Positions 8,399-24,472 of a DNA stretch of 37,605 nt are shown here, piece by piece. The stretch comes from Sciscionella marina DSM 45152. GTDB taxonomy: Bacteria > Actinomycetota > Actinomycetes > Mycobacteriales > Pseudonocardiaceae. Below the pieces are notes generated by a model. The model searched no databases. It was not told where the DNA came from and was given only the letters and a program-made list of their open reading frames with translations. The translations under genes and the position numbers were made by a program. The first letter of the stretch is position 1, and each line of letters begins with the position of its first letter. The stretch is taken from assembly GCF_000379465.1 (NCBI RefSeq), contig NZ_KB905425.1, forward strand, positions 43,381 through 80,985. The letters are read 5' to 3'.

Positions 8399-8881
8399 AT
8401 GGCAAGCACGATGTACCGCGATGGCCCGACATCGACCCCGACCGCACCGGCCGCCGAACTTGACCTCGCCGCTGGCGTGGAGTTCTACCGCCGCTTGGGT
8501 TGGCCAAGCAGCCTCGACGCCCGTCGGCGTCGGCTCGTGCTGCATACCGGCGATGCGCTCGACGCGTTGATCCTTCCCGCACACTTGGCCAGCCCGGTCG
8601 CCACCGAGGTGAGCACGAGCCTGATGAACGGCCCCGTTAGCACCGACAGCGACCACCGGTGGTGGACTTTCCTGACGGCGCCGTGCCAGCGGGCCAATCT
8701 GGAGCTGCCCGCCGAGCTGCGAACGGCCAAGGTGCGTGCCGTCCCGCGCGGCGGTCATGTTGTCGTGCCGCACCCAGCAGATGCCGAGCGCTGGCGGCAG
8801 CGCCCGCAGCAGGACCGGACGCTGCCGCCCTGGAATGCGGTCGTGGCGATCGCCCGCAAGGTTCTCCAGGCGCGGCATTGA
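8399..8881 (+). CDS. Hypothetical protein, actinobacterial type (primase-polymerase-like resemblance only)
   Basis: ATG 8399 has CGGAG upstream at normal spacing and gives 160 residues: AAELDLAAGVEFYRRLGWPS, then RRLVLHTGDALDALILPAHL, WWTFLTAPC and LPPWNAVVAIARKVLQARH. The order of a strand-helix start and a WTFLTAP segment recalls proteins annotated as bifunctional primase/polymerase N-terminal regions in actinomycetes, but no catalytic motif can be verified, so function is left open. It is in frame with the upstream small gene (see 8007). The end is clean, with about 95 bases before the next frame. Confidence 0.62.
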   Translation: MASTMYRDGPTSTPTAPAAELDLAAGVEFYRRLGWPSSLDARRRRLVLHTGDALDALILPAHLASPVATEVSTSLMNGPVSTDSDHRWWTFLTAPCQRANLELPAELRTAKVRAVPRGGHVVVPHPADAERWRQRPQQDRTLPPWNAVVAIARKVLQARH

Positions 8882-8977
8882 CCAGCTGTACACCCATTTC
8901 CGGGTGCGGAATCGCCCTGCCTACCGAACACGGCAGTAGCACCACGTGCCCGGCCATCGTCGCCGAAAAGGTCCGTT

Positions 8978-9265
8978 GTGCGTATACCCCAGGACGAAGT
9001 CACCGCTGCAACGCCCTGCCCCGGCGTGCTTCGCGCGCGGACGAGGCACTTCCCACGGATGGCGTCCGGCAAGCCCGTCACGATGCCCTACCTCATTACC
9101 GGGCCGCTCGGTCGGCATCAGACCGTCATGCCGTCGCTGTGTGCCAGTGAGTACCTGCTCCCGCCGCGCTCCGACGAGATCGAGCCAGCCGAGCCGGTGT
9201 TGCGGAATGCCGGGGTCGGCTTGCGGCCCTGCACGAAGACCGCACTTCGCTTCGGCGGCGTGTAA
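8978..9265 (+). CDS. Hypothetical protein
   Basis: GTG 8978 with AAAAGG upstream gives 95 residues, including VTMPYLITGPLGRHQTVMPS and LCASEYLLPPRSDEIEPAEP, ending RPCTKTALRFGGV. Third-position GC is near 80 percent across the frame, which supports coding. No domain is recognised and there is no hydrophobic segment. It lies in a run of small plus-strand genes between two XRE-controlled loci. Confidence 0.5.
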   Translation: MRIPQDEVTAATPCPGVLRARTRHFPRMASGKPVTMPYLITGPLGRHQTVMPSLCASEYLLPPRSDEIEPAEPVLRNAGVGLRPCTKTALRFGGV

Positions 9266-9417
9266 GCACACTGGCCTGATCGACGTCACGCTCCGATGGA
9301 TGCCGGACTGCTGTGGGACGTCACGAACTCCGCGACAGCACGGGAAACCCAGTCACGCGCACATCTACCTCTGACCACAGTGGACGTCATAGCGCGGAAA
9401 CGATGGAGGCAACAACC

Positions 9418-9684
9418 GTGTCGTTCTTTGCCTTCGAGCGAGCACTCTTGGTCACTCCGACCGAAGAACTTCCGACAGTTCTCGACGCCTGCCCGGAGTG
9501 GCCGACAGTCGACATGGACGACCCCAACGTCAAGGCCGAAAGACAGCGCGCTGCCGACGTCGCAATCCAGCGACCACAATCGGGACGAGCGCCACAGCAA
9601 GGACCGGGTCAGTGGCAACCACCTATGACGGGGGACGAGCTAGCGCATGTTCTCGAACTAATGCGCAAGAAGTGGAATTTGTAA
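9418..9684 (+). CDS. Hypothetical small acidic protein
   Basis: GTG 9418 is preceded by GGAGG at eight bases, a strong ribosome site that decides this start over in-frame ATG 9403. The 88-residue product begins SFFAFERALLVTPTEELPTV, is acidic in its first half (CPEWPTVDMDDPNVKAERQR) and ends MTGDELAHVLELMRKKWNL, a likely amphipathic helix. No known domain. It is convergent with the kinase gene at 9727, 42 bases away. Confidence 0.6.
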   Translation: MSFFAFERALLVTPTEELPTVLDACPEWPTVDMDDPNVKAERQRAADVAIQRPQSGRAPQQGPGQWQPPMTGDELAHVLELMRKKWNL

Positions 9685-9726
9685 GGAGGTCTGCGTGCGA
9701 CATCCCAAAAGACCCGCGTCAGGTAG

Positions 9727-10323
9727 CTACTGCGCTCCGGACGCACCATTGCGTTTCGTCCACGGCGTGCAACTCTCGCTAAACGCCTCGCGCAGGACAC
9801 GGCGCACGGTGCCGTCCAGCGTGGATTCTTGAGGAATGACGCGCTCTTCGACGAACCCAAGCTGATCCGCTGCTCGATACCATCTCCGCATCTCGTCATA
9901 GCCAAACTCGGCGACCTGCGGCCGTGTTTCGTGGCGTCGTAAGGTCTCATCCCAGGAGACATCGAAGTAATAGAACATCGTGCTTCCGACATGGTCACGG
10001 CGTAGCTGGTCCAGCATGTCCCGGTACCGTGTCGCGTGCATGATGCCCTCGCAGACCACGTGCCACCCGCGGTCGAGTGCGAATCGCACAGCCGTGGAGA
10101 TCAGCTCGATGTTCGCCCCGCCGGGAACATCGCGTTCCTTGAGCACGATCCGGCGAAAGTAGTCCTGTTCGATCAGCGCGACATTGCGACCAAGATGCGC
10201 ACGCAACCGGTGTGCGGTCGATGACTTTCCCGAGCCGGAGGGACCGCGGAGCACAACGAGCCGTGAGTTCTCGGTTCCGGTTGGGCTCGTTGCCGACGAC
10301 GCCGATCCGTGACCGTCGATCAT
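9727..10323 (-). CDS. P-loop kinase, AAA/zeta-type small-molecule kinase
   Basis: A 198-residue protein with Walker A GPSGSGKSS near residue 30, then a base/acid segment LIEQDYFRRIVLKE and a lid-like stretch with RHETRPQVAEFG. This is the architecture of small P-loop kinases (adenylylsulfate, chloramphenicol or zeta-toxin-like). There is no antitoxin partner. ATG 10323 has GAAGGAAA upstream. It follows the cyclo-ligase gene by eight bases on the same strand, so the two form an operon. The substrate is unknown. Confidence 0.75.
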   Translation of the reverse strand: MIDGHGSASSATSPTGTENSRLVVLRGPSGSGKSSTAHRLRAHLGRNVALIEQDYFRRIVLKERDVPGGANIELISTAVRFALDRGWHVVCEGIMHATRYRDMLDQLRRDHVGSTMFYYFDVSWDETLRRHETRPQVAEFGYDEMRRWYRAADQLGFVEERVIPQESTLDGTVRRVLREAFSESCTPWTKRNGASGAQ

Positions 10324-10331
10324 GGTTTCCT

Positions 10332-11063
10332 TCAGCGGTGGTTCTGCAATGACTGCAGGACAGGCATTGCCGCGATCTGGTCTGCGCTCAAATCTTCCCA
10401 GTGGAGTCCGCTGGGGCGGCGCGGTGGCGCGCAGGCAATGACCTCGTCGGTCGTTACGATTACGTCGACGCTGAAGTCGTGGTTTGTCTCGGGGATGTCG
10501 TCCTCGATCACCTGGAGCGGATGCACGGTGGTGACGATCGTGGTCGTGGGACCGATCAGGCCGGCCTGCGCGAGAAGAGCGACTTCGATGTCTGAGTAGC
10601 CGGCGCCCTTGCCGATGCGCACGCCATTGCGGTTCACGGCGACACTGCCGCATACGATCAGGTCGACCGGTCGCAGCTCATCCAGGCCGACGTTGCGTGC
10701 GACCGATGGCGCGGTGCGGCTGGAGGCGGCGTCCTCGGCGGGAACGGTCAGTTCAGCGGGGTCGAGCAGGTAGAACGGCTGCGGTGGCGCGAGCTTGGGC
10801 GCGGCCATGTAGACCACCTTGCCCTCGCGCAAGGCGCGGGCACGGGCTGGGAGCTGGGCTTTGTCCGGCACGGCCTTGACGACGCTAGCGCCCTTCCAGG
10901 CCGACAGCGCGGCAAGTTGATCGGCCGCGGCCTCAGCGCCGATGAAGTTCGGGATGCGCCCACGCGCACTGGCTTCGCCCCCCACGGCACCCCGCTGGTC
11001 CAGCAGGTTCCACACCTGCCGACGGATGGAGTCCTTGCGCGCGTCCACCTCAGTCCTGGTCAC
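10332..11063 (-). CDS. 5-formyltetrahydrofolate cyclo-ligase family protein
   Basis: A 243-residue protein of the MTHFS family, which closes 5-formyl-THF to 5,10-methenyl-THF with ATP. Family marks include KDSIRRQVWNLL at the N terminus, a glycine-rich ligand loop RIGKGAGYSDIEVALLAQAG and a late TTVHPLQVIEDDIPETNHDF segment. It is somewhat longer than the usual 180-200 residues. GTG 11063 has GAGGAG upstream. It sits between an XRE-TPR regulator and a P-loop kinase on one strand, outside any folate cluster, so it may act on a different substrate or serve a specialised pathway. Confidence 0.8.
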   Translation of the reverse strand: MTRTEVDARKDSIRRQVWNLLDQRGAVGGEASARGRIPNFIGAEAAADQLAALSAWKGASVVKAVPDKAQLPARARALREGKVVYMAAPKLAPPQPFYLLDPAELTVPAEDAASSRTAPSVARNVGLDELRPVDLIVCGSVAVNRNGVRIGKGAGYSDIEVALLAQAGLIGPTTTIVTTVHPLQVIEDDIPETNHDFSVDVIVTTDEVIACAPPRRPSGLHWEDLSADQIAAMPVLQSLQNHR

Positions 11064-12351: not shown

Positions 12352-13239
12352 TCAGAACGCGGTCCACGTCCATGGCCGGGGGATCTCGCCCCGGAGACAT
12401 GCGATGCGGTGGCGGGTTTCGTTGGCCGCGCGGGAGCTGCTGGCGGCCTTGCCGAGGACGAAGACCACCCAGCGTAGCTCTTGGATGTCGGCGAGGTCGC
12501 GGAAGGCGCTGGTGGTCGTGACATCGTGGCCGCCATAAGCGGCGACGAAGTCGTGGTAGTCGCTGCTGGTCAGGCGGGCGAAGTCGGCATAGTCCACCGC
12601 GACGGGGATCAGGTCCCAGTCAGGGTGACCACGGGAAACGTGTTCGAGGTCCAGCAAGACCGGGGCGCCGGTCTCGGGAACCGCGACATTGCCTTGCCAG
12701 GCATCGCCGTGAACGACGCCGGGAGCTTGGTCGAGCCGCAGGTTGTCCAGCTGTTCCCGCAGATGCTCGACGCGTCGGGCCAGCCAGTTTCGATCATCCT
12801 CGGGCACGTACCGAGCTGCGGCAATGCGCTCGTCCAGGCCGGCGAAGGGGTCGAAATGAGGCAGCTCCGGGTGGGTTGGAGGGCTAAGAGCGTGCAACGA
12901 GCGCAGGACCGCGCCGAGTTCTTCCGTCGTGGCCGGGCGATGCTCCGGTAGCTGTTCCCACCAGGTCACCGGGCGCGTACCCACCATGGTCGGCTGAGGG
13001 ACGTCGTCGAGCGCCCTGACGACAGCCAGGCCGGCGCCGCTAAGCCAGCGAGCGACCTCGACCTGCCGCATGGCGTTGTTGTGGGTGTGCTCAGGCCCAA
13101 TCCTGGCAACGATGCCGTCGGGCAGCCGGTACATCACGTTGGAGCCATCGCGGATCATCGCCGCGTTCGTGGCATCAACACCCGCCAATTGGGCCGCGGT
13201 GGCGAGTACGTCGTCTGCCGTCTCCAGAGGTGCCGTCAC
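12352..13239 (-). CDS. Aminoglycoside phosphotransferase-family kinase
   Basis: A 295-residue APH-fold protein. The catalytic loop HGDAWQGN and the metal motif LLDLEHVSRGHPDWDLIP are intact. The N-terminal lobe carries RDGSNVMYRLPDGIVARIGP, a nucleotide-binding strand pair. The C-terminal half resembles actinobacterial homologues next to XRE regulators. GTG 13239 begins 13 bases after the stop of the second XRE-TPR gene, so they are co-transcribed. The substrate is unknown. The same pairing of XRE regulator and APH-like kinase occurs at 4.4-7.4 kb. Confidence 0.8.
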   Translation of the reverse strand: MTAPLETADDVLATAAQLAGVDATNAAMIRDGSNVMYRLPDGIVARIGPEHTHNNAMRQVEVARWLSGAGLAVVRALDDVPQPTMVGTRPVTWWEQLPEHRPATTEELGAVLRSLHALSPPTHPELPHFDPFAGLDERIAAARYVPEDDRNWLARRVEHLREQLDNLRLDQAPGVVHGDAWQGNVAVPETGAPVLLDLEHVSRGHPDWDLIPVAVDYADFARLTSSDYHDFVAAYGGHDVTTTSAFRDLADIQELRWVVFVLGKAASSSRAANETRHRIACLRGEIPRPWTWTAF

Positions 13240-13252
13240 ACTGCTGATGGTG

Positions 13253-14575
13253 TCAGGTCGCTGCCCGCCCCAAAGTGGCGATGTCGTGCCGCAGCTCGGC
13301 GACGTCGCCGAGCTGCACGTGAGGGGTGGCAGTCCGGGCAAGGCCGTGGAGTTCGGTCATCAGCCGTTTCGACCGTAGTGTGGCGGTGTCGATCACGGCC
13401 TGGCGGCCAATCGGCACGGCTTCCCGCGGGTACCCAGTCGCCATCATCAATGAGGCCAGCCGGACCCGGGAGAACGTCCGTGAGCGGGGATACTCGGCCG
13501 CTTGCAGACGGATCGCTGCGTCCAGCCGACCGGCCGCCAGCTCAGGGTTGCTGCGGGCCTGTGCGAGGGGGATCAACGCCTTCCCGGTGCTTCCTTGGTG
13601 CTCGGCAGCGTCGTAGTAGCACAGCCACGGCGGGTCCGCTTCGGGCTCATGGTCGGCGAAGTGGGCGTCCGCGCGGTCGACGTCCGCTTGGGCTTCGACG
13701 TACCGGCCAGTCAGTGCCAGCAGCCGGGCTCGGATCGTGGTCAGCATTGCCCGAGCCGTCGCGGTGATCCGATCGGAACGGACCTGGGCGAACTCGATCA
13801 GCTCCAAGGCGTCGTCGAGATCGCCCAGGTAGGCGGCCTTGCGTGCCATCTCCGCCAGCGTGTTCGCCCGCAGCGCCCACGAGCCGGCATAGTCGGCACA
13901 CCAGAGCGCGAACTCGAAGCACCGGTCGGCAGCGGCGTAGTTGGCGATGTCGAACGCGGAAAAGGCAACGACGCTGGCGAGGTTGCCGACTGCTTCAGCG
14001 ACGCAGCGGTGCACTTCGTTGGGGGCCTGAACCTCCAGCAGCTGTCCGGCCCAGCGCAGTTGCGCTGCCGCCGCCTCGCACGAGAGTCCACCGCCGAACA
14101 GGTTTTCCGACATCGCCACGGCACGAGTGGTCGCGCGGACGTGCTCCACCTCGGTCCAACCGAGCCGCGAAGGTAACGGGGTCTCGACGACGGTGCCGGC
14201 CAAGAAGTCACGCGGGCTTCCTCCGATGTCGATACGGCCCTGATAGTCGTGGGCGCGCCTGGGAACCGTCGCCTCGGTCAACGGCTGCCGAAAGCGGGGA
14301 TTTCCGCTTGTTACTGACGTCAGGGCCAGACGGCCCCGCGTTGTCGCTGGCGCGCCGCTGGGGTCGGAGTCGATCACGAGGAGGTTTGTCAACTCCGCCG
14401 GGGTCACGCTGAGCGCGCGTGCCAGCTTGGGCTGCATGTTCGGCCTCGGTGCGACTTCCCCGGACTCCCACCGATATACCGTCGAGCGTTCGACACCGAG
14501 CTGGACGGCGAGCTGTTCCTGGGTCATGCCCATGGCATGGCGTTGGCGCGCGAGCCGATCGCGCTTACCTGGCAT
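13253..14575 (-). CDS. XRE-family regulator with TPR-like C-terminal region (copy 2)
   Basis: A 440-residue protein: helix-turn-helix MGMTQEQLAVQLGVERSTVY RWESGEVAPRP at residues about 15-45, then a helical repeat region (YAAADRCFEFALWCADYAGS and ALELIEFAQVRSDRI among others). Its DNA-binding part closely resembles copy 1 (both read MGMTQEQLA and YRWESGE). ATG 14575 follows GGGGTGAAG. It is divergent from the operon starting at 14959, with 383 bases between them containing phased repeats, so it is the best candidate regulator of the QueC operon. Confidence 0.83.
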   Translation of the reverse strand: MPGKRDRLARQRHAMGMTQEQLAVQLGVERSTVYRWESGEVAPRPNMQPKLARALSVTPAELTNLLVIDSDPSGAPATTRGRLALTSVTSGNPRFRQPLTEATVPRRAHDYQGRIDIGGSPRDFLAGTVVETPLPSRLGWTEVEHVRATTRAVAMSENLFGGGLSCEAAAAQLRWAGQLLEVQAPNEVHRCVAEAVGNLASVVAFSAFDIANYAAADRCFEFALWCADYAGSWALRANTLAEMARKAAYLGDLDDALELIEFAQVRSDRITATARAMLTTIRARLLALTGRYVEAQADVDRADAHFADHEPEADPPWLCYYDAAEHQGSTGKALIPLAQARSNPELAAGRLDAAIRLQAAEYPRSRTFSRVRLASLMMATGYPREAVPIGRQAVIDTATLRSKRLMTELHGLARTATPHVQLGDVAELRHDIATLGRAAT

Positions 14576-14643
14576 GTCTTCACCCCTCGCAGTCGACCGA
14601 ATCTCTCTGATCTCGACAGCATCTTTGCAGGTCACGATGTTGC

Positions 14644-14673
14644 GTGCATCAACTGTGCAGCATCGGTGCAGCA
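14644..14673. promoter_or_regulatory. Three direct repeats of GTGCA(T/G)CA with exact 11-bp period
   Basis: GTGCATCA (14644), GTGCAGCA (14655) and GTGCAGCA (14666) lie in the divergent spacer (14576-14958) between the second XRE-TPR regulator and the QueC-side operon. The 11-bp spacing puts all three on the same DNA face, which suits cooperative binding by an HTH regulator. No clear -10 or -35 could be picked, and nothing else is evident in the 383-base spacer. Confidence 0.5.
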
Positions 14674-14958
14674 ATTCTGCTCTGGTTCATCGTGCACCCC
14701 GCCTGTTGACTTCCAGGTGAGCGCCCCACCGAAGCGGATAACGACCGCCCGGTGATCACGCGGTGCTCTGACCTGTGAATAAGGGGCTCGCTGCTTACGA
14801 GGAGACATCGTGACGCTCCCTCAGCGATTCGTGGGCGAAAGCGCACCACGATCCCGTTGCGTAAACCGGCGGCTCGCACCGCGAGCCATCTCGCATCGTC
14901 CGACCGGCGCCATATCGCCGCCCTCCGCGAATAGCGCGAGCGGGAGGAGCCGGTGCTG

Positions 14959-15231
14959 ATGAGACGATCGTTGGCGACCCGCTGTCGCTCGCTCTTGCGT
15001 CGCGAGAACGCAGATGTGCGTGACCGCGTCCCATATCGGGATGAGCGTGGACGACGCGCTTGCATCGCAGTCCGCGAGCTGCCGAGCGGGGATGTGCGGA
15101 TCGAATTCCCCCCGCACGGCCCCATTTCCGTGCAACCGCTCGATGTTGAGCGTCTGCGTCGAGCGCTCCGGTCAGCCGTCGCACCGTCCGAAGCGGCAAC
15201 GCGCACCCGGCGAGGTCGCTTCACCTCATAG
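14959..15231 (+). CDS. Small conserved-type protein, paralog of the 8007 gene
   Basis: ATG 14959 has GGAGGAG nine bases upstream, better placed than for GTG 14953. The 90-residue product has DERGRRACIAVRELPSGDVR, a likely beta hairpin, then LDVERLRRALRSAV, a basic helix. Its layout matches the small gene at 8007. No known domain. It is the first gene before QueC (118-base gap) and probably opens the transcript. The family's repeated position just before larger genes suggests an accessory or regulatory part. Confidence 0.6.
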   Translation: MRRSLATRCRSLLRRENADVRDRVPYRDERGRRACIAVRELPSGDVRIEFPPHGPISVQPLDVERLRRALRSAVAPSEAATRTRRGRFTS

Positions 15232-15349
15232 CTCTCCCGAACCGCCGCTGCCTCGGCTTCGCAGCCGCAGCGCACACAGGCCGCGGTGGAGGTGAAGCGC
15301 ACCCCGACCTTCACCTCCACCGCGTACCAACGACCAAGGAATCCGGAGA

Positions 15350-16117
15350 ATGAGCACCAGAATTGACACTGCTTCCTCGCACTCACACCACATCGAGACG
15401 GTGACTGCTCCGGGCAAGCCCGGCATTCACCGTCATCCTCGCCATGCGGTCGTGATCGCTTCCGGCGGCCTTGACTCGACCGTGCTTGCCTACTGGCTCC
15501 ACGCCCGCGGAACTCAGCTGACCCTGCTGTCCTTCGACTACGGCCAGCGCCATCGAGTCGAACTGCGCTACGCGGCGGCAACTGCGTCGGCCCTGGCGAT
15601 GCCGCATGAGGTGGTCGACCTTTCCGCGTTGGGGCGCGTGCTCCACGGATCGGCGTTGACCGACTCCGGCGTAGGGGTTCCGGACGGCCACTACACCGAC
15701 GAGACGATGCGGGCCACCGTGGTTCCCAACCGCAACGCCATCATGCTCGACATCGCGGTGGCTCTGGCGGTCGTCACGCAGGCCGACGCAGTCGCATTCG
15801 GTGCTCACGCCGGCGACCACCCGATCTACCCGGACTGCCGGGAGAGGTTTACGACGAGCTTCGCCCAGACGGCGCACGTGGCGAACGAAGGATTTCTCCC
15901 CAGCGACTTCCAGCTGGTGGTGCCATTTCTGGCCAGCTCCAAGACCGACATCGTGCGGCTGGGCGCCGCTCTTGGCGTTCCGTTCGAGCAGACGTGGTCC
16001 TGCTACCGCGGCGATGCGCGGCACTGCGGCACGTGCGGCACGTGCACGGAGCGCCGAGAAGCGTTCCATGACGCAGGCGTGACCGACCCGACGACCTACG
16101 CCGTGGAGCGCACGTGA
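15350..16117 (+). CDS. queC: 7-cyano-7-deazaguanine (preQ0) synthase, QueC family
   Basis: A 255-residue QueC. It has the PP-loop SGGLDST (residues 38-44) for ATP and a TVVPNRNAIML segment. The zinc site is CYRGDARHCGTCGTC (C218, C226, C229, C232), all four cysteines intact, followed by the ERREAF motif. Known QueC converts carboxy-deazaguanine to preQ0 with ammonia and ATP. The first 30 residues are a non-conserved extension. ATG 15350 has GGAGA upstream. No folE, queD or queE is near, so preQ0 precursors must come from elsewhere or the enzyme serves another acceptor; QueC-like enzymes also occur in antiviral systems (QatC, type IV CBASS). It overlaps the next gene by four bases (GTGA). Confidence 0.9.
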   Translation: MSTRIDTASSHSHHIETVTAPGKPGIHRHPRHAVVIASGGLDSTVLAYWLHARGTQLTLLSFDYGQRHRVELRYAAATASALAMPHEVVDLSALGRVLHGSALTDSGVGVPDGHYTDETMRATVVPNRNAIMLDIAVALAVVTQADAVAFGAHAGDHPIYPDCRERFTTSFAQTAHVANEGFLPSDFQLVVPFLASSKTDIVRLGAALGVPFEQTWSCYRGDARHCGTCGTCTERREAFHDAGVTDPTTYAVERT

Positions 16118-17097
16118 TGACGGCCGATACCCAGCCGAACGGCACAGGAAAACCTGAGTGGGGCCGTCTTTCCCGTCCCGACGCGCGTGTGCTGGGGTGC
16201 GCGTCCTTCTTGCGGGGTGCTGGGATCGTTCCTGCCACTCAGGCAATGTCGACTCTAGCGCATGTGGAGCCCGCAGCACCAGCGGGAAAGTCTGCCATTC
16301 CACAGTCGCACTCGTTGATGCCGTTGCTGCACGAGAAGCATCTCCGCCGAGCGCTACGCCAATGCGGGCGGCGGTCTTCCAGCCCTGGAGCTGATCGGAT
16401 GACCTGGGCGGATCTACGCCAGCATGCCGGAGTAGTGCTTCCGAATCTCGCCGCACAGCTCGCTGCCAGCACGTGGCGCCCCGGCCCGCTTCGCCAGCTG
16501 ACGATTCCCACCTATACCGGGAAGTCTATGCCGACCGCGATCCCCACCGTGGTGGATCGTCTCGTGCACCGAGCGGTGCGGAATGCGGTGGAGCCGATCC
16601 TGGAGGCACGAGCGTTCACCGACTGGGCCTCCGGCTACCGACCCCGGCGGAACCGCAACACCGCGCTTCGCCACGCGGATGGCCACTTGTCCGCCGGATA
16701 CCGATGCGTCGCCGATGTCGACGCCGCCAGGGTCTCCGAGGGCGTCGGTGTCGACGAAGCGGTGGACTGGTTCGCCGAGTATGTCCATGACGGAACATTC
16801 CTCCGTCTGCTCCGCACCCTGCTCGCAGGATTGCCCAGTCCCGTGGTGCCGGGGTCAGGACTCGCACCACTCCTGATCAACCTTCGTCTGTCGCAAGTAG
16901 ACAGGTTGCTGTCAGGTGCTCGTGTCGTGCGGTTCGCCGACAACTACTGCGCTTTCACCGAGACGACAGCGGACGCCGAGGAAGCGTTCTGGTGCATCAG
17001 CGACGCCATGGCCGCTGTGCGCCTGGAACCGAACGCGGCCAAGAGCCGTGTACGACGCAAGACCAATGCCGAAGACCTCTTCCTGATCGATGGATAG
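16114..17097 (+). CDS. Reverse-transcriptase-fold protein with altered catalytic motif
   Basis: A 327-residue protein matching group II intron/LtrA-type reverse transcriptase motifs in order: SSSPGADRMTW (RT0), IPTVVDRLVHRAVRNAVEPI (RT2), GYRPRRNRNTAL, motif A VADVDAARV with D201, and PGSGLAPLLINLRLSQVD in place of PQGxxxSPLLxN (motif B). Motif C is RFADNYC (residues 273-279) where YADD is normal. The second catalytic Asp is thus Asn277 and the PQG signature is lost. No maturase X domain or HNH endonuclease follows, and no intron ends are seen. DNA synthesis is doubtful; RNA or DNA binding, or non-standard nucleotidyl transfer, is possible. Coupled to QueC (GTGA) and overlapping the next gene region; start GTG 16114 or ATG 16117. 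Confidence 0.85.
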   Translation: MMTADTQPNGTGKPEWGRLSRPDARVLGCASFLRGAGIVPATQAMSTLAHVEPAAPAGKSAIPQSHSLMPLLHEKHLRRALRQCGRRSSSPGADRMTWADLRQHAGVVLPNLAAQLAASTWRPGPLRQLTIPTYTGKSMPTAIPTVVDRLVHRAVRNAVEPILEARAFTDWASGYRPRRNRNTALRHADGHLSAGYRCVADVDAARVSEGVGVDEAVDWFAEYVHDGTFLRLLRTLLAGLPSPVVPGSGLAPLLINLRLSQVDRLLSGARVVRFADNYCAFTETTADAEEAFWCISDAMAAVRLEPNAAKSRVRRKTNAEDLFLIDG

Positions 17098-17101
17098 CGC
17101 A

Positions 17102-17650
17102 ATGAGCGTCGATTGGATCGAGGTCCCGGGCGGCACCTGCATGTTCGGGGATCAAGCTCGTCCCATCACGGTGCCCACACTGCTGTGGACACGCACGCCG
17201 ATCACCCAAGCACAGCTGGGCTACGACCCACGTGAGCACCATCCGGCCACCAATGTTGATCAGCCCACGGCTGACCGCATTGCTTGCCAGTTCGGGGGAA
17301 GGCTGCCCCGCTCGGTGGAGTGGGAATGGATGGCGTCTGGACCCGAACGACGGGTGTGGCCATGGGGAAACGCGCACTGGAGTCCCGAATTGGCCAATCT
17401 CCGGGACTCAGGCTATGAGGCCAGGACTGACGTGACGGCCCACCCGGACGGTGCCACGCCGGACGGGATGCTCGACGTGGCAGGGAATGTCTGGGAGTGG
17501 ACCGCCAGCTCCACCATGGGCGATAGCTTCGTGATCCGCGGCGGCTCCTATGCCTCGCCGCCCTTGTACGCCCGATGCACGTTTCTCAACTCGGCACCTG
17601 CCGAACTCCATTCTCCCGGCATCGGGTTCAGGGTGGTGCGTGAGCCATGA
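17102..17650 (+). CDS. SUMF1/FGE-sulfatase-fold protein (compact)
   Basis: A 182-residue protein with the family's landmarks: WIEVPGGTCMFGD at the start, GGRLPRSVEWEWMASG, WPWGNA, MLDVAGNVWEWT, then IRGGSYASPPLYARCTF and the closing IGFRVVREP. Known members include formylglycine-generating enzyme, EgtB-like oxidases and the variable proteins of diversity-generating retroelements, all on a C-type-lectin-like fold. It is shorter than enzymatic members (about 250-300), and the paired active-site cysteines of formylglycine-generating enzyme are not apparent. ATG 17090, inside the reverse-transcriptase-fold gene, is an alternative start. The stop overlaps the next gene (ATGA). Confidence 0.83.
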   Translation: MSVDWIEVPGGTCMFGDQARPITVPTLLWTRTPITQAQLGYDPREHHPATNVDQPTADRIACQFGGRLPRSVEWEWMASGPERRVWPWGNAHWSPELANLRDSGYEARTDVTAHPDGATPDGMLDVAGNVWEWTASSTMGDSFVIRGGSYASPPLYARCTFLNSAPAELHSPGIGFRVVREP

Positions 17651-18102
17651 CTCCACCTGTTTCCGCCGAGCACGGCTTGATCGTCGCTGGCTGCTCTCGT
17701 CGGAAGAAGCCGGCCCCGGCACCGATCCCGGCCTTGGATCTCTACGAGGGCGGGTGCATACCCGGACTTCGGGATCGGCTGGGAGACAACGTTCAGTTGC
17801 GCCAGCGGATTCGGATCGTCTCGGCGCTCTACGGCTTGCTCCACGCGGACTCACCGATCATGCCCTACGACCGCCGCCTGACCGATGTCGCCGACGCCGA
17901 TGTCTTGCGCCAGCGCGTAGCTCCGCATCTCGACGGTGAGTTGGCTGCCGTGACGCACGTATTGGCAGTCGTCGAGCCCCTGTACCTACTCGCCCTGGAG
18001 CCGGTGGTGCAGCGCCTCGACTCGATCCGCCTGTATTGGATCGCTGCCCCACGGGATTGGCAGCGCGCCGCAACGGTCCTCGACACCTGGGGGTGGACAT
18101 GA
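17647..18102 (+). CDS. DUF6884-like protein
   Basis: A 151-residue protein: LIVAGCSRRKKPAPAPIPAL, LYEGG, then RIVSALYGLLHADSPIMPYD RRL. The GCSxRK start and the SALYGLL...PYD centre are the hallmarks of DUF6884 and related YaaA/archaeosine-transglycosylase-tail-like domains, recalled from memory. Function is unassigned, but relatives appear near deazaguanine or DNA-handling genes, which fits the QueC four genes upstream. It starts on an ATGA overlap with the SUMF1-fold gene and ends on one with the glycosyltransferase. Confidence 0.7.
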   Translation: MTPPVSAEHGLIVAGCSRRKKPAPAPIPALDLYEGGCIPGLRDRLGDNVQLRQRIRIVSALYGLLHADSPIMPYDRRLTDVADADVLRQRVAPHLDGELAAVTHVLAVVEPLYLLALEPVVQRLDSIRLYWIAAPRDWQRAATVLDTWGWT

Positions 18103-19115
18103 CTACGTCGCTCACGGGCACCTTGGCACTGCGCGAAAACGACCACACGACCTACACCCTGGAGTTCGAGCGAAGCGCTGGAGTCGCATGGCACCAGCCG
18201 GTTCCCGCCGGCTGGGTCGGCGGTCGGCGCCTGTCGGTGGTTCTTCCCGCACACAACGTCGCTTACTGCCTGCCGAAGGTGCTCGACGCGCTGCGGGCGC
18301 AGGCGTACGGGCGCGGCTTCGAGGTGATCGTCATCGACGACGCCTCGACCGATGCCACCGCGGAGATCATCGCTACGCATCCGGCCGTCACAGCAGGACT
18401 GCGGCTTCGCACACGCTGTGGCGCGGCCACCGCGCGCAACCTCGGCACCTACATCGCGCAAGGCGAGACCGTGCTCTACGCCGACGCCGACATGCTCCTG
18501 CCGCCCTCAACCGTGGCGGACCTGGCGGCGCGGGCCACCGACCACGCCGTGCTCACCGGATTCCGGCACAACCTGCCGCCGGACACTTCCTGGCCCGACA
18601 ACGGCCCCGAACTGACCGCCGACCATCGCGTCACCTGGCGACCACCAGTGAATACTCCCTTGCTCTACAGCGGCATCACCCTGCGAGAACCCGTCGTTGG
18701 CCGGCCACTGGAGCACACCCGCGACTTTCGCGATCTGGGGCACGGGCGGATGTACTACGACTGGGACTTGCCGCGCATGGTCGTCACCGCACTGCTCGCC
18801 GTGCCCCGCGCCGTAGTCCTCGACGTCGGTGGATTCGACGCCGAGTTCGGGCGCATCGGCTGGGGTATGGAGGACACCTATCTCGGCGCCTGCCTTATCG
18901 CCGCTGGGCTCCTGGTTATTCCACTGCGCCAAGCAGTCGGACTTCATCTCGATCCGCCCGACGCAGCCCAGCAATGGCAGCGCAAGCTCAGCACCTGGCC
19001 AGCCACCCTGGCGCGCTACCGAGCCCTGCTCAGCGAACCCGCCCGTTCCGGGCGGCGCGCTGCGCTCACTACCGCGATGAACTCCCTGTTGCACTCCTGC
19101 GAGGTCTTGCGATGA
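18099..19115 (+). CDS. Glycosyltransferase family 2 (GT-A fold)
   Basis: A 338-residue protein. After a 45-residue N-terminal extension come LSVVLPAHNVAYCLPKVLDA, VIVIDDASTDATAEII and the metal site YADADML, typical of GT2. A later segment GGFDAEFGRIGWGMEDTYLG matches the acceptor-side motif of galactosyltransferase-type C-terminal domains. No membrane segment is seen, so it is probably soluble and could glycosylate a small molecule or peptide made by the neighbours. ATGA overlaps at both ends. Confidence 0.85.
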   Translation: MTTSLTGTLALRENDHTTYTLEFERSAGVAWHQPVPAGWVGGRRLSVVLPAHNVAYCLPKVLDALRAQAYGRGFEVIVIDDASTDATAEIIATHPAVTAGLRLRTRCGAATARNLGTYIAQGETVLYADADMLLPPSTVADLAARATDHAVLTGFRHNLPPDTSWPDNGPELTADHRVTWRPPVNTPLLYSGITLREPVVGRPLEHTRDFRDLGHGRMYYDWDLPRMVVTALLAVPRAVVLDVGGFDAEFGRIGWGMEDTYLGACLIAAGLLVIPLRQAVGLHLDPPDAAQQWQRKLSTWPATLARYRALLSEPARSGRRAALTTAMNSLLHSCEVLR

Positions 19116-20089
19116 CAACCTTTCATTCCAGCGCGACCACCACCACAAACCGCGTCTTTGCCACCGGTGCGTGTGATAACACCCGCTTCGTCCATGACCC
19201 CCTGAGCGGGCTGACGCATCGCACCGAGGACTTGATCGCCCTCGGGCGAGCCCGCTTACCCAGCAGTTCGGTGGCTAGCTGGCCCACCATCCACCCCGGC
19301 GAGCTGGACCGCGAGGTTCCGGTCAGTGTCTGCTGGTCCCCACTGGTGCGCTGCAACCTCGCCTGCCCTCATTGTCTGGACGACAAGGCGGTGCCCGAAC
19401 TCGCCCGAAAGGAACGTCAGCGGATCGCCGCCCTGCTTGGTGAGTCCGGTGTTCTGGCCGTGGACCTCTCCGGAGGCGAGCCCTTGCTGCTGCGCGATCT
19501 CGGCGACCTCATGGCCACGCTCACCAGCGCCGGATGCGTGGTCAGCGTGACCACCAACGGCTGGCATCTGCAGCGGCGTGCCGAAGCACTGGCCGAACAG
19601 GTCGACGCCGTGCGGGTCAGCCTCGACGGTCCCGACGCCGAATCCCATGACCGCTGGCGCGGGCCAGGGAGTTTCCGCCGAGCCGTGGCTGGCGTCCGAG
19701 CCGCCGTCGCCCACGCTATCCCCACGCAACTGCAAACCGTCCTGATGGACTCCACCCGCGGCAACGCGCAGCGCATGGTCGACGTCGCTGCACAGCTCGG
19801 TGTCGACAGCGTGACCTTCCTGCAGATGCTCCCGATCGGCGAGGGTGCTGCGCTGGCCGGAGCCGAACAACTCACCGACGAGCAAGCCCACACCACCGTC
19901 GCCGACCTCGACGTCCCCGAGGCCGTCACCGTCCGACTGCGCACTCGCGACGACGCAGGAGGTTTCACGGTCATTCGAGCCGACGGGCGCGTGTGGCGCA
20001 ACGACTCTACCGCCGACGGCATCACCACCCTGCATACCTTGAACAGCCCCTCCGACCTAGCACTGACCGGCAGGGATGGTTCCGCATGA
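19112..20089 (+). CDS. Radical SAM enzyme (MoaA/PqqE-like core, no SPASM cysteines)
   Basis: A 325-residue protein. CNLACPHC (C81, C85, C88) binds the [4Fe-4S] cluster, SGGEPLL (from about residue 120) is the SAM motif, and VSLDGPDAESHDRWRG fits the core barrel. The C-terminal region (FTVIRADGRVWRNDSTADGI) resembles SPASM proteins but lacks cysteines, so no auxiliary cluster is expected. It is not a clear QueE: the glycine-rich QueE signature is absent and the protein is longer. A peptide- or nucleoside-modifying role is inferred. Coupled on both sides by ATGA. Confidence 0.83.
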   Translation: MTTFHSSATTTTNRVFATGACDNTRFVHDPLSGLTHRTEDLIALGRARLPSSSVASWPTIHPGELDREVPVSVCWSPLVRCNLACPHCLDDKAVPELARKERQRIAALLGESGVLAVDLSGGEPLLLRDLGDLMATLTSAGCVVSVTTNGWHLQRRAEALAEQVDAVRVSLDGPDAESHDRWRGPGSFRRAVAGVRAAVAHAIPTQLQTVLMDSTRGNAQRMVDVAAQLGVDSVTFLQMLPIGEGAALAGAEQLTDEQAHTTVADLDVPEAVTVRLRTRDDAGGFTVIRADGRVWRNDSTADGITTLHTLNSPSDLALTGRDGSA

Positions 20090-20679
20090 GCATCAGCATC
20101 GCCTCGTCCGTGCCAGACCGCGTCTTCGAGCATCACCGCCTGTGGCAACTGCACAGCTCCCCGATGCTGCAGGCGTGCGGTCTGCTGGCTGCCGCAGCTC
20201 GCCAGCTCACGTCCAGCACACATCTGGACGAGATCGGCGCCGTCATCGGGATCGCGCACGGTGGGTCCACTCCGGCCCAGCACATCGCCGGGCTACTGGG
20301 GTTGCCAGCTCACAGCATCCAGGCCAGCCACAACGCTACTGACGCGCCGTACAGCCCGGCGACCGGCGCCGTGACCTGTGACCTCAGCTCCTGGCAGCCC
20401 AGCGCGCCCACCCAGCTCACGGGAACTGTGCTGGTGGTCGATGACATCTGCGGAACCGGCGCCACCTTCACCGCGGTCCTCGATGCGATCCGGCCCTGGG
20501 CCGAGCCCGACGCCCATTTCCTCACCTGCGCGTTGTGCCGCAACCGCGGCGCGCCCATGCCCCCTGACCTCTACTGCTGGGACGTCGGCGACTGGGTTGT
20601 CTTCCCCTGGGAGAACGTTCCCGCAGGTCACCCGACCACGCCGCTCCCCTCCCCGAAGCAGGTGATCATGCGTGACTGA
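20086..20679 (+). CDS. Phosphoribosyltransferase (type I PRT fold)
   Basis: A 197-residue protein with the PRPP-binding loop VLVVDDICGTGATFTAVLDA near residue 120 and an N-terminal region ending IGIAHGGSTPAQHIAGLLGL, as in ComF/Xpt-like PRTases. It transfers 5-phosphoribose from PRPP to a base. Next to QueC, a 7-deazapurine acceptor is attractive, giving a nucleotide of preQ0, but this is inference. Starts on ATGA with the radical SAM gene and ends on GTGA with the truncated glycosyltransferase. Confidence 0.8.
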   Translation: MSISIASSVPDRVFEHHRLWQLHSSPMLQACGLLAAAARQLTSSTHLDEIGAVIGIAHGGSTPAQHIAGLLGLPAHSIQASHNATDAPYSPATGAVTCDLSSWQPSAPTQLTGTVLVVDDICGTGATFTAVLDAIRPWAEPDAHFLTCALCRNRGAPMPPDLYCWDVGDWVVFPWENVPAGHPTTPLPSPKQVIMRD

Positions 20680-20929
20680 AGCACCCGAACAGCCTCCGCT
20701 GACCGTGGCGTTCCTGCTCGCCTCCTACACACCCGACGCCCCAGCCGGTATGGAACGCGCTACTGCGGCCTTGGCGAAGGGCCTGCGCCAGCTCGGCCAC
20801 CGCGCGATCACCCTCACCGCAGCCGAGCAAGCAGAACCCGACCCCGACGTCATCCGGTTACTCGCGGAGAACCGGCGACACCTCATACCAGACCGCACGC
20901 GGCACCGAGGAGTTGTCCTCGTGTCGTAG
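20672..20929 (+). pseudogene. Truncated glycosyltransferase (GT4 N-terminal segment)
   Basis: GTG 20672 continues the coupled operon. The first 65 residues (LTVAFLLASYTPDAPAGMER ATAALAKGLRQLGHRAITLT) are the N-terminal Rossmann start of a GT4 glycosyltransferase. The frame then enters sequence antisense to the HxlR gene and stops at 85 residues, whereas GT4 enzymes run to 350-400. The rest was lost by recombination near 20860-20875, so no functional enzyme is expected. Confidence 0.75.
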
Positions 20930-21163
20930 TACCAGCTCCTCCCGCTCCATACGGGTCAGCGTCCGCGACAAGCTCTGCCGGGTGAGCGGTTTCGTTTTGT
21001 TTGACCACCGGTGCTGGATGCTACTATCCTGAATTTCCTTCAACAGATCCAGGAAGCGCTTTTGGCCGTCCCAGAGCACAACGACAATCTCCGGAACCCA
21101 TTCCCCCTGCTGCCAATTCACGGCATCGAACCAGTTCAGCACCTCGTCGGCGCTAATCCCCAT
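20858..21163 (-). CDS. HxlR-family winged-helix regulator, C-terminally shortened
   Basis: A 101-residue protein: GEWVPEIVVVLWDGQKRFLD LL is the HxlR entry helix-strand, then LTRQSLSRTLTRMEREELVL RHE is the recognition helix and wing, ending YEVSPVLRE. Most HxlR proteins continue with a 'YELTPLG' strand and helix, so the last residues look replaced at the same junction that cuts the facing glycosyltransferase. ATG 21163 has GGAAAGGAAG upstream. It may still bind DNA as the helix-turn-helix is complete, but dimerisation could suffer. Confidence 0.7.
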   Translation of the reverse strand: MGISADEVLNWFDAVNWQQGEWVPEIVVVLWDGQKRFLDLLKEIQDSSIQHRWSNKTKPLTRQSLSRTLTRMEREELVLRHEDNSSVPRAVWYEVSPVLRE

Positions 21164-21381
21164 GCCCGGCTTCCTTTCCCCGTATGCTCCTCGGTACCCT
21201 CGTGAGGCGAGGGCGACTCCCTTGTCTGCTCACCCACGCGGTCGGCGTCGGTAGCACCCCCGGACCGTCCATGGTCACTCCGATGCAGGCAGGTACGCCG
21301 CTCAAGCGCGCTATCCGGACCTATTGAGTGGTCAACTCCACCCGATCAGAGCAGCAGTTGATCTACGCAGTGTGACCCCAC

Positions 21382-21540
21382 GTGATCGCCCTGCTCATCT
21401 GCCTGCTCATCTTCCCACTCATCTGCCTGCTCATCTTCCTATTAAGCAGGAAGCCCGCCAGCGGTGCGTTGTCGCAGGTCAGCGCGTCGCTGGCCCTTCC
21501 TGAGTGCACCAAGCCTCGGTACCCCACGGGAACCGGTTGA
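21382..21540 (+). CDS. Possible small single-pass membrane protein with repeated LICLLIF
   Basis: A 52-codon frame from GTG 21382. Residues 2-21 are almost all hydrophobic, IALLICLLIFPLICLLIFLL, with the two LICLLIF units coming from the 22-bp DNA repeats at 21394-21439. The charged SRKPASG follows, positive on the cytoplasmic side if oriented N-out. No good ribosome site is visible, so it may be only an effect of the repeat. It lies 219 bases beyond the start of the divergent HxlR gene. Confidence 0.28.
   Translation: MIALLICLLIFPLICLLIFLLSRKPASGALSQVSASLALPECTKPRYPTGTG
21394..21439. repeat. Two 22-bp direct repeats, 24-bp period
   Basis: Two identical 22-base copies at 21394-21415 and 21418-21439, each built from CTCATCTGCC and TGCTCATCTTCC, separated by two bases. 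The CTCATCT motif is itself doubled within each copy. Sequence composition differs from the flanks (T-rich on this strand). Confidence 0.8.
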
Positions 21541-21803
21541 CGACTGAGAGGGAAGGGGCTGGCAACCGGAGTGGACTGGGGCGGTGGACGCGCGCGTAGG
21601 GTGGTGCAGTTTCTCTAAACTGCATTTTTCGACCTATTCTTACTTTCCAAAGGACCTTCCGAATTCGTGGCAAGAAGAGTCTCGAACGGCATCAGTTCAG
21701 CGCTCGCGACGTCCACTCGATTCACGCATATCAGTGCTGGCCAGGCTCGCGCAAAGCGACTCGGAACGTCAAAGAAAACCGCCAGAAAAACTATGATGCG
21801 ATG

Positions 21804-21833
21804 TTGTGTCGCGTGCGGCGCCGGCGTTAGGCT
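21804..21833 (+). promoter_or_regulatory. Possible promoter (TTGTGT-N18-TAGGCT)
   Basis: TTGTGT (21804-21809) and TAGGCT (21828-21833), 18 bases apart, match the vegetative actinobacterial pattern (TTGACN, TAGRNT). They lie about 115 bases before ATG 21949 in an otherwise gene-free spacer, so they may drive the accessory operon 21949-28751. This is a pattern match only. Confidence 0.35.
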
Positions 21834-21890
21834 AGAGCCATCGGAACACAGGGAAGAGAACCCAGGAAGTTCCGAGAAGAAAGAAATATT

Positions 21891-21922
21891 GCGGGTAGGG
21901 ATTCGCACCCCGCTATACCCGC
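21891..21922. promoter_or_regulatory. Inverted repeat GCGGGTA...TACCCGC before the accessory operon
   Basis: Seven-base arms at 21891-21897 and 21916-21922 with a further GGG/CCC pair inside, ending 27 bases before ATG 21949. It could be an operator or an mRNA leader hairpin. Confidence 0.4.
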
Positions 21923-21948
21923 AGCCGAAATCAGTGAGAGGAATTCTC

Positions 21949-22551
21949 ATGACCAGTGTGTCTGTTGAAGCGTGGTCGCACGGTGACGGGTATCTGACCG
22001 TGGACACGCAGGAATGGATCAACGATCGCGGCGAGTACGCGGATGATCTGACCGACGGCTTGCGCGAGTGGATGGACGCGAACGGCCACGAGTGGCCGCA
22101 CGATGACGTGATCGCGAAGTGGATCACCGATCGCACGGGTGAGCCTCCGGCCGGTCTGCACGGCGACGGGGGCCTGTGGCATCACAACCTGGTCAACTTC
22201 TCCGATCACCTGATCGATGATCTCGGGTTCGTGGTGCTGTCCTCGGCCGGATACGGCGATTTGATGATCACGGTGAGCGATCGCCTCGGCTTGTACGTCG
22301 CCCCGACCGTCTATCGCTCCACTGTGGACGCGCTGGAGGAGTGGGCCGACTACTCCGACGCAACGGGTGAATGCGTGAACGGGCATCGCTGGGAAACCCA
22401 CGACACGGTGCGCCTGCATGCGTGGGACGGCGCGGACATGACCACCTATCGCGTGCCTGACCTGGTCCGTGTGCCGTTCGACGACCGGTCCCGCGCTTAC
22501 GTGGCGTGCCCGACCTGCAGCAAAGCTGTGCGGTTCGCCTGCCGATTCTGA
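21949..22551 (+). CDS. Hypothetical conjugative-element protein with C-terminal zinc-ribbon-like cysteines
   Basis: A 200-residue protein starting at ATG with GAGAGGA upstream. It begins TSVSVEAWSHGDGYLTVDTQ, is acidic and aromatic-rich, and ends with CVNGH...CPTCSKAVRFAC, a probable zinc ribbon (C, then CPTC spaced about 50 residues later). No enzyme motif is recognised. A longer upstream in-frame extension is unlikely since it would cross the spacer features. First gene of a plus-strand series. Confidence 0.7.
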   Translation: MTSVSVEAWSHGDGYLTVDTQEWINDRGEYADDLTDGLREWMDANGHEWPHDDVIAKWITDRTGEPPAGLHGDGGLWHHNLVNFSDHLIDDLGFVVLSSAGYGDLMITVSDRLGLYVAPTVYRSTVDALEEWADYSDATGECVNGHRWETHDTVRLHAWDGADMTTYRVPDLVRVPFDDRSRAYVACPTCSKAVRFACRF

Positions 22552-23230: not shown

Positions 23231-24472
23231 ATGACCACCGCGACCCACACCACGACCGTGACCGCCGCCCCGTCCGGGGCGCCCGTGCTGTTCCGAACCG
23301 ACCGCGCCACGCTGGCGCACGCCTTGACCACGGTCGGTGTGGGACTGGCGCGGCGGCCCGCTCTGCCGATGCTGGGCGGAGTCCTGTTGGACGGGCGCGA
23401 CGGAGACCTGACCCTGACCGCGACCGACCTGGAAACCGTGGCAACCGTGCGTGTGCCGGCTGCCGCGCCCACCCCGGGCCGGGTCCTGATCGATCACACC
23501 GAGGCGACCAAGCTGCTCGGCGCGCTGGTCAAGGGCCGTCGCAAGCGCGACGCCGACGCCGCGCCGGTCACCGTGCGCACCACCGACGACGGGACGGCCG
23601 TCCTCGAACTGGGCGGCTACACCATGCCCGTGACCACCTATGCGGCGGAGGACTTCCCGACGCTGCCGGCGACCCCGCCCACCGTCGCCGAGGTCGACCG
23701 CGAGCGGTTCACCACCGACGCGCGGCGCGTGCTGGTCGCGACGGGCACCGACGACACCCTGCCGATGGCTATGGGCGTGCAGATGCACCTCACGTCCGGC
23801 ACGCTCACCCTCGCCGGGACCGACCGCTACCGGTTGGCCGTCGCCGAGCTGGCCGCGACCACCACGACCGACGAACGCGCGGTGTTCTTCCCGACGCCGG
23901 TCCTGTCCGCCGCGCTCAAACACGCGACCGCTGAGCGCGTGCGCGTCGGTATCGGGAACGACGGGGGCGCCGGCGAGTGGGTGTCGCTGGTCTGTGGCGC
24001 CCTGACCGTGATCACGCGCCCGGTCGAGGCGCAGTTCCCCGCCTATGAGCGGCTGTTCCCCGAGGTGACCGCCACCGCGCGCGCTGACCGCGACGCGCTC
24101 ACGCAGGCGACGGCACGCGCTGCTGCCGCGCTGGAGGCCAAGAAGCACACCAGCAGGGACAAGCACGGGCACCGGACGGCGGCGCAGGTGGCGCTGACCG
24201 TCGATCCCGCCGGCACGGTGTCGATCGCGCCCGTGCTCGGCGAGCACGCCGACGCGGTGACCGCACCCGCCCACCCGGCCGTGGTCGGCGGCGCCGGCGA
24301 ACCGATGCGCGTGCTGTTCTCCGCGCCGTACCTGCGCGACGCGCTCACCGTGCTCGACGGGGACACCGTGCTGTTCCAGCTCGCCACCCCGACGCATCCG
24401 GTGCTGCTCACTGGAGCCGGCGGACATGCATACCGGCACCTGTTGATGCCCGTCCGCCAGCCGAAGTCCTGA
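23231..24472 (+). CDS. DNA polymerase III beta-like sliding clamp (accessory DnaN)
   Basis: A 413-residue protein with the three-domain clamp pattern. The start region has LAHALTTVGVGLARRPALPM LGG, then LTLTATDLETVATVRV (domain I end), PMAMGVQMHLTSGTLTLAGT DRYRLAVAEL (domain II, matching the 'ATDGHRLA' motif) and a C-terminal HLLMPVRQ like the YLLMPVRL end of DnaN. Chromosomal clamps load polymerase; this extra copy could favour replication of the element or act with its own repair polymerase. It has an insertion of about 50 residues in domain III. ATG 23231, GGGAGG upstream. Confidence 0.82.
   Translation: MTTATHTTTVTAAPSGAPVLFRTDRATLAHALTTVGVGLARRPALPMLGGVLLDGRDGDLTLTATDLETVATVRVPAAAPTPGRVLIDHTEATKLLGALVKGRRKRDADAAPVTVRTTDDGTAVLELGGYTMPVTTYAAEDFPTLPATPPTVAEVDRERFTTDARRVLVATGTDDTLPMAMGVQMHLTSGTLTLAGTDRYRLAVAELAATTTTDERAVFFPTPVLSAALKHATAERVRVGIGNDGGAGEWVSLVCGALTVITRPVEAQFPAYERLFPEVTATARADRDALTQATARAAAALEAKKHTSRDKHGHRTAAQVALTVDPAGTVSIAPVLGEHADAVTAPAHPAVVGGAGEPMRVLFSAPYLRDALTVLDGDTVLFQLATPTHPVLLTGAGGHAYRHLLMPVRQPKS

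Follow-up and report, generated by a model that had tools for sequence, protein, structure and literature searches.

An operon in which a reverse transcriptase (RT) may serve metabolism was found in a 37,605-nucleotide stretch of Sciscionella marina DSM 45152 (contig NZ_KB905425.1, positions 43,381 to 80,985 of the forward strand), called the window below. Seven open reading frames (ORFs) at 15350-20679 of the window, all open and intact, encode QueC, an RT, a protein with the fold of formylglycine-generating enzyme (FGE), a DUF6884 protein, a family 2 glycosyltransferase (GT2), a radical SAM enzyme and a phosphoribosyltransferase (PRTase). In complete copies elsewhere these are followed by a family 4 glycosyltransferase (GT4), a 5' nuclease and an LmbE-type protein. 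A domesticated palm of the group II intron RT type and a 5' nuclease of the DNA polymerase I (PolI) type are conserved parts of the operon, the nuclease lying outside the truncated copy in the window. The reading that we favour, with somewhat better than even confidence, is a deazaguanine-ribonucleotide pathway that has captured a group-II-type RT palm.

QueC (7-cyano-7-deazaguanine (preQ0) synthase, 255 aa, 15350-16117) matches Pfam PF06508 at 2.6e-63 and scores above the NCBIfam equivalog cut-off (TIGR00364, 187.7 vs 150.3 bits). It is followed, also on the forward strand, by a group-II-type RT palm protein (327 aa, 16114-17097; RVT_1 1.5e-9), a short FGE/SUMF1-fold protein (182 aa, 17102-17650; FGE-sulfatase 2.7e-20), a DUF6884/YaaA-like protein (151 aa, 17647-18102; DUF6884 3.6e-7), a GT2 (338 aa, 18099-19115; Glycos_transf_2 2.7e-20), a radical SAM enzyme (325 aa, 19112-20089; Radical_SAM 4e-17) and a purine-type PRTase (197 aa, 20086-20679; Pribosyltran 8.7e-12; all Pfam). 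Automated gene calls used a simple hexamer model, which makes gene starts, and small genes in general, approximate. The original prediction, made from this DNA and its ORFs alone, had named the same seven complete genes, and Pfam and NCBIfam agree with its families. It also had the genes joined by overlaps, which holds for five of the six junctions (4 nt each, GTGA at QueC/RT and ATGA at FGE/DUF6884, DUF6884/GT2, GT2/radical SAM and radical SAM/PRTase); at RT/FGE, where it had used a frame from 17090, the ATG of 17102, the start that agrees with relatives, leaves a gap of 4 nt and no overlap. The operon is also longer than the seven genes first assigned to it. An eighth gene, GT4 (20672-20929, forward strand, Pfam), begins with a GTG at 20672 that overlaps the PRTase by 8 nt, and its homology covers only about 63 codons, against 374 aa in locus L048. 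As this homology ends near 20860, the copy in the window is 3'-truncated: past that point there is no match to the genes that come next in other loci, and the window lacks the 5' nuclease and LmbE genes. Because of this cut the full-length GT4, 5' nuclease, LmbE and QueD/QueE could not be seen by the earlier reader.

Gene set and order were compared in 49 loci collected by searching with the RT; the near-identical L061-L063 were dropped, and partial and decayed contigs were kept. Besides the RT, present in all 49, tblastn found QueC, FGE, DUF6884 and the 5' nuclease in 46 loci each, GT4 in 45, GT2, the radical SAM enzyme and the purine-type PRTase in 44 each, and LmbE in 43. The full order QueC-RT-FGE-DUF6884-GT2-rSAM-PRTase-GT4-nuclease-LmbE, with all ten genes on one strand, occurs in 39/49 loci, and the genes present are collinear in 45/49. 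The ten loci without the full ordered set are the window copy, L068, L074, L077-L081, L113 and L114. With start sites set by a simple rule, spacings of -150 to 20 nt were counted for RT-FGE (42/46), FGE/DUF6884 (42/46), DUF6884/GT2 (41/42), PRTase/GT4 (41/42) and nuclease/LmbE (42/42). QueC and RT are this close in only 25/45 loci, partly because other genes intervene in a second bacterial family. L113 and the Embleya plasmid locus L114 are rearranged, with a WbqC-like gene (Pfam 3e-60 in L113) and a second GT4; RT and nuclease are kept in both. In L077, a decayed copy, a WbqC-like sequence and the RT share one open frame (8849-10228 of the reverse complement, in RT orientation) with a stop further on, which may be a real fusion or a product of decay. 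Clade-specific inserts between GT2, the radical SAM gene and the PRTase (L051 14292-14789, L054 12488-12802) encode a small helix-turn-helix (HTH) protein and a protein of 104 aa that has no Pfam match.

To avoid circularity, the same 390 genomes that had been searched with the RT in the family of S. marina were searched with GT2 as an independent bait (E ≤ 1e-50). This gave 31 positive genomes, 29 of which are also RT-positive; GT2-positive G081 has a decayed copy in which a fragment of the RT and a remnant of FGE survive. Two genomes are RT-positive and GT2-negative, one that has lost GT2 (G069) and one with a decayed divergent copy (G360). The RT is under purifying selection (pairwise omega 0.20-0.25 in seven pairs; 0.07-0.44 for the other genes). 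Its pairwise distances track those of nine other operon genes (r 0.88-0.95, 38-41 loci, leaving out the rearranged or decayed L077-L079, L113 and L114); it has travelled together with the operon. A recent insertion of the RT is rejected by gene order, selection and co-divergence. The original prediction had proposed such a check of co-occurrence and order, and its idea of a system was to fail if the RT proved to have inserted at random and to be missing from most operons of this kind; that is not what was found, the purifying selection speaking for the RT as a true part. Its claim that the genes form a single coordinated system centred on nucleobases is likewise supported, and its interpretation as a whole in part.

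The genes for preQ0 are linked to the operon, both within the loci and at some distance. Inside the 49 loci, which span about 20 kb or less, QueD and QueE were each found in 18 and FolE in 13. For the 14 loci of the second family, cluster labels give QueE in 14, QueD in 13 and FolE in 10, usually as FolE-QueC-QueD-QueE-RT. In the family of S. marina, QueE is present in 29/30 operon-bearing and 5/30 operon-lacking genomes (Fisher p 1.2e-10, uncorrected for relatedness; 30 of the 31 RT-positive genomes were used, and the operon-lacking ones came from earlier listings and not from a random draw). The QueE match lies on the contig of the RT in 29/29 genomes, 6-68 kb away and within 20 kb in 22, the nearby match in G376 being partial. 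Standard queuosine is not likely to be the purpose of the preQ0, since tRNA-guanine transglycosylase (TGT, PF01702) is above cut-off in 0/19 operon-bearing genomes, against 14/14 controls, with one sub-threshold match in G1180. In profile searches the PRTase is closest to archaeal purine PRTases (4z1o 4.2e-17).

The operon core is a variant of the deazapurine clusters. According to PMC7439116 and PMC6112128, the toyocamycin, tubercidin and huimycin clusters have clustered FolE, QueD and QueE equivalents like those of the operon, toyocamycin and huimycin also QueC, toyocamycin and tubercidin a phosphoribosyl pyrophosphate (PRPP) transferase, and huimycin a glycosyltransferase. Clustered genes for preQ0 or its precursor 7-carboxy-7-deazaguanine (CDG), namely FolE, QueD, QueE and QueC, by which a deazapurine cluster is recognised, are found here too. 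In the tubercidin pathway TubE (194 aa, similar in length to the PRTase) joins CDG to PRPP (PMC6112128), and in huimycin N-acetylglucosamine is attached to a preQ0-derived base (PMC7439116). Unlike the clusters as described there, the operon has RT, 5' nuclease, FGE-fold and DUF6884 genes in its core. For the RT and nuclease no counterpart appears in the excerpted cluster descriptions of PMC7439116, PMC6112128 and PMC12648386; the first mentions neither a reverse transcriptase nor an exonuclease, and the last, a review, no reverse transcriptase. A paper on the QueC family (PMC13329287) mentions no reverse transcriptase, radical SAM enzyme or glycosyltransferase, and no description of the operon was found in the titles and abstract openings of the open-licence literature among the matches listed. 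Three hypotheses had been offered in the original prediction, a modified nucleoside or peptide natural product, defence by deazaguanine conjugation and nucleic-acid-guided modification. A modified nucleoside natural product is the best fit, in view of the linkage to preQ0 genes, the purine-type PRTase and the tailoring enzymes encoded after it.

The second hypothesis, defence, found no support. It would make the operon an anti-phage system that uses deazaguanine conjugation, akin to Qat or to type IV cyclic-oligonucleotide-based anti-phage signalling (CBASS), in which Cap9 is QueC-like and Cap10 belongs to the TGT family (PMC11996544). A QueC family protein is shared with these systems, and the RT, the match of the radical SAM enzyme to the PADLOC prokaryotic viperin profile (pVip, 1.7e-20, 71.6 bits), the patchy distribution and the multiple copies would all suit defence. 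However, the operon QueC passes the standard preQ0-synthase cut-off and reaches 30 bits against 280 for QatC, the radical SAM enzyme fails the NCBIfam viperin cut-off (52.3 vs 180 bits), and the operon-bearing genomes have, instead of a TGT above cut-off, a preQ0 pathway nearby. The ten core proteins matched generic QueC and RT models, the viperin profile and weak UG/Drt and PDC-M57A models in PADLOC, with no CBASS or Qat partner model beyond QueC/QatC; the RT itself scores 6.8e-39 with the general RT model PDLC01136 and 1.7e-5 to 7.6e-4 with UG/Drt models. Identities as antiviral RT, CBASS, Qat or viperin, being weak or under curated cut-offs, were rejected, and a defence role is quite improbable. 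The PF01702 result above also bears on dpd DNA modification, although this model may miss the transglycosylase DpdA.

The best solved relatives of the RT are group II intron RTs (5hhj, profile 1.4e-39). Its predicted structure, based on an alignment of only four sequences, has a fair palm at a mean predicted local distance difference test (pLDDT) of only 54.5, and Foldseek matches it to 6ar1 (5.6e-11). It resembles group II intron RT/maturases in the sequence and fold of fingers and palm. The profile match stops at the palm, with no thumb, X/maturase or endonuclease domain, and TIGR04416 (NCBIfam) reaches 124 bits against a cut-off of 300; a fixed operon place, FADN in place of FADD and a serine at the gate set it further apart from those proteins. 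All 43 usable sequences keep the two catalytic Asp residues, D203 of motif A and D276 of motif C, and the second motif C Asp is Asn (N277) in 42/43, with Asp in L075. Ser208, aligned with the Phe that we take to be the steric gate of group II RTs, is Ser in 41/43, Thr in one and Ala in one. A small residue at the steric gate of a polymerase is expected to admit ribonucleotides. An active group II intron was rejected, as the window has no intron RNA family match at Rfam gathering scores and the RT lacks maturase domains.

The FGE-fold protein has profile matches in the PDB to EgtB (C-terminal domain), CalU17, FGE and the variable protein TvpA. A cysteine pair and a DinB domain are hallmarks of FGE and EgtB activity, and both activities were rejected: no cysteine pair is conserved in the alignment, and a DinB domain would not fit into a protein of this length. 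The match to TvpA, with FGE-sulfatase domains being common targets of diversity-generating retroelements (DGRs; PMC8934634), would fit a DGR, or what is left of one, that diversifies the FGE-fold protein. Yet the C-terminal part of this protein is well conserved, the RT fits the group II enzymes far better than the DGR RT 8ub7 (6.9e-5), so that it is of the wrong type, and 14500-22000 holds no repeat pair of at least 30 bases, although a diverged template/variable repeat pair could escape that search. DGR identity was rejected and is extremely improbable.

The 5' nuclease of complete copies has both Pfam domains of the DNA polymerase I 5' nuclease/FEN family (5_3_exonuc_N 7e-32, 5_3_exonuc 3.7e-16) and its acidic residues, invariant in 8/8 aligned sequences (a ninth was dropped); unlike in DNA polymerase I, it stands alone and in a biosynthetic operon. 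The nearest solved relatives of the radical SAM enzyme are SkfB, BlsE-type cytosylglucuronate decarboxylase and MoaA. GT4 and its PIG-L/LmbE neighbour recall the MshA/MshB-type pair of mycothiol synthesis, with matches of GT4 to 3c4q (3.9e-15), which we take to be MshA, and to the D-inositol 3-phosphate glycosyltransferase 7qsg (2.3e-12), but another GT4 enzyme, 6tvp, scores better (8.9e-18). DUF6884 gave a confident AlphaFold2 model (pLDDT 88.2), for which no PDB sequence match and no significant Foldseek match was found. SMUG1 uracil-DNA glycosylases make up 7 of the first 29 Foldseek rows, all weak and non-significant (best E 0.21), and the resemblance of the model to them is only a hint.

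For the deazaguanine-ribonucleotide pathway we infer the following reactions, together with the roles of RT and nuclease. The window's seven genes would be the 5' part of a metabolic operon. By family knowledge, FolE, QueD, QueE and QueC would convert GTP to preQ0 or its precursor CDG, and the purine-type PRTase would join either to PRPP, giving a 7-deazaguanine ribonucleotide. Tailoring would be carried out by the radical SAM enzyme, GT2, GT4 and the LmbE-type deacetylase, and DUF6884 and the FGE-fold protein may bind the base or the product. More tentatively, the RT palm could transfer the deazaguanine ribonucleotide, and not a deoxynucleotide, to an acceptor such as another nucleotide or the end of an RNA, and trimming or release of the product could fall to the 5' nuclease. 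In its fullest form, where the RT palm builds a nucleotide- or oligonucleotide-type metabolite from the deazaguanine ribonucleotide on a nucleic-acid scaffold, which is then glycosylated and freed by the 5' nuclease, the proposal is speculative and we think it unlikely to hold as a whole. If true, it would add a metabolic role for reverse transcriptases to those in introns, retrons, DGRs, CRISPR acquisition and defence; these enzymes would be new as domesticated, conserved components of a metabolic operon. The altered active site, with its steric-gate Ser and FADN, makes a direct biochemical prediction, and the operon is a defined target for genome mining, probably with a new glycosylated deazaguanine product.

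Several observations weigh against this pathway or against the place of the RT in it. All 49 loci were baited with the RT, the GT2 search being the one independent check, and G007 keeps QueC-GT2-rSAM-PRTase-GT4 while RT, FGE, DUF6884, nuclease and LmbE were not found in the 20 kb fetched, which counts against strict indispensability of the RT. Operon-bearing G021 has no QueE at the threshold used, and the single QueE of the S. marina genome adjoins another operon copy, on contig C5, away from that in the window. No transporter or phosphatase stood out among recurrent gene clusters inspected by eye, no dedicated search being made. In the RT, the motif B Gln is Pro in 38/43 sequences and Ala in 5/43, and the finger Arg is Met or Phe in 38/43. 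With these replacements and no thumb in the profile match, the RT may not be a polymerase at all; reduced or changed catalysis is also possible.

The unremarkable showing of transporters would suit nucleic-acid hypermodification, in which RT palm and 5' nuclease together work like a polymerase I in two parts, swapping a short patch of RNA or DNA for deazaguanylate, later glycosylated. Such a role is also consistent with a nuclease of intact acidic residues and a palm of both catalytic Asp residues beside a base pathway, and with the weak, non-significant SMUG1 matches of DUF6884. We give it a low probability; it is made doubtful by the lack of a transglycosylase above the PF01702 cut-off in the 19 genomes (G1180 having one below it), by an RT without a thumb for processive synthesis, and by the LmbE and own-clade DegT and Gfo/Idh genes, which resemble small-molecule sugar chemistry.

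Alternatively, RT palm and nuclease may be non-catalytic, binding RNA such as a leader hairpin or tRNA and thereby regulating the pathway or protecting the producer from its own nucleotide analogue. The altered RT active site would agree with this, as would a strong inverted repeat in the leader (15282-15324, forward strand; 16-bp perfect stem, 11-nt loop, RNA fold z -3.95) that ends 25 nt before the QueC start. Its arms are, by eye, Shine-Dalgarno-like and anti-Shine-Dalgarno-like, and the repeat is a candidate operator or RNA hairpin. Against such a role, both catalytic Asp residues of the RT are invariant and other clades showed no such hairpin ahead of QueC. We give this explanation a low probability; it is partly compatible with the deazaguanine-ribonucleotide pathway. 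The hairpin was seen at that place only in the window's own clade, six loci of which were compared. Among these, each of the three main-stem changes leaves a G-U pair, and a gap in L049 costs one pair. The pair-keeping changes in the six related sequences are one-sided, none being compensatory. The hairpin was rejected as an RNA that would partner the RT throughout the family, being confined to this clade.

The S. marina genome (8.5 Mb) carries two more copies of the operon, both of which (L007, L006) run through GT4, 5' nuclease and LmbE. The C5 copy has 84% DNA identity to that in the window and is followed by a DegT aminotransferase, a Gfo/Idh oxidoreductase and a methyltransferase (Pfam names taken from their L048 homologues); QueD and QueE lie about 3 kb beyond these. 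The other is in three pieces with 67-72% DNA identity, about 62 kb off on the same contig as the window. Searches baited with the RT gave matches in 31/390 genomes of the family of S. marina (E ≤ 1e-30), 14/300 of the second family (E ≤ 1e-40), 9/397 of an order sample (E ≤ 1e-30) and 5/396 of a phylum sample (E ≤ 1e-25), the last being S. marina itself and four at 30-36%; one other genome of its genus that was examined gave no match. Six loci came from named records of Saccharopolyspora, Amycolatopsis, Actinokineospora and Prauserella, and the named bearers include Saccharopolyspora endophytica, Actinokineospora terrae, Amycolatopsis species and Prauserella flavalba. Copies in one genome and RT matches across two families are more than chance.

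The operon is horizontally spread. About 100 kb around it is 99.5-100% identical between G264 and G088, which belong to different genera, apart from a stretch of about 2 kb in G264 only, and on one side the flanks are 92-95% identical. Two more genomes (G183, G103) have shorter contigs that agree with this block (L060-L063, L117-L132; three genera in all, as labelled). The block probably reflects recent horizontal transfer, shared contamination being less likely. Among the best 20 of 2601 plasmid records, the top match is the Embleya megaplasmid locus (47.5%) and the other 19 are below 35%, many of them annotated as group II intron RTs; viral contigs held no stretch fitting the RT patterns.

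Upstream of the operon, on the minus strand, lie an APH-like phosphotransferase (12355-13341), an occasional operon neighbour with tblastn matches in 12/49 loci, and an XRE-family HTH protein (13256-14674), a possible regulator of the pathway; XRE-type matches occur in 33/49 loci and are partly non-orthologous. At 23231-24472, a few kb past the end of the truncated operon, lies the gene of a DnaN-like sliding clamp with three Pfam domains, which may belong to an element or be a resistant copy of a target. At 9730-11063, on the minus strand, are an AAA/zeta-toxin-like kinase and a 5-formyltetrahydrofolate cyclo-ligase-like protein, which are also found upstream of the operon in several loci of the window's own clade.

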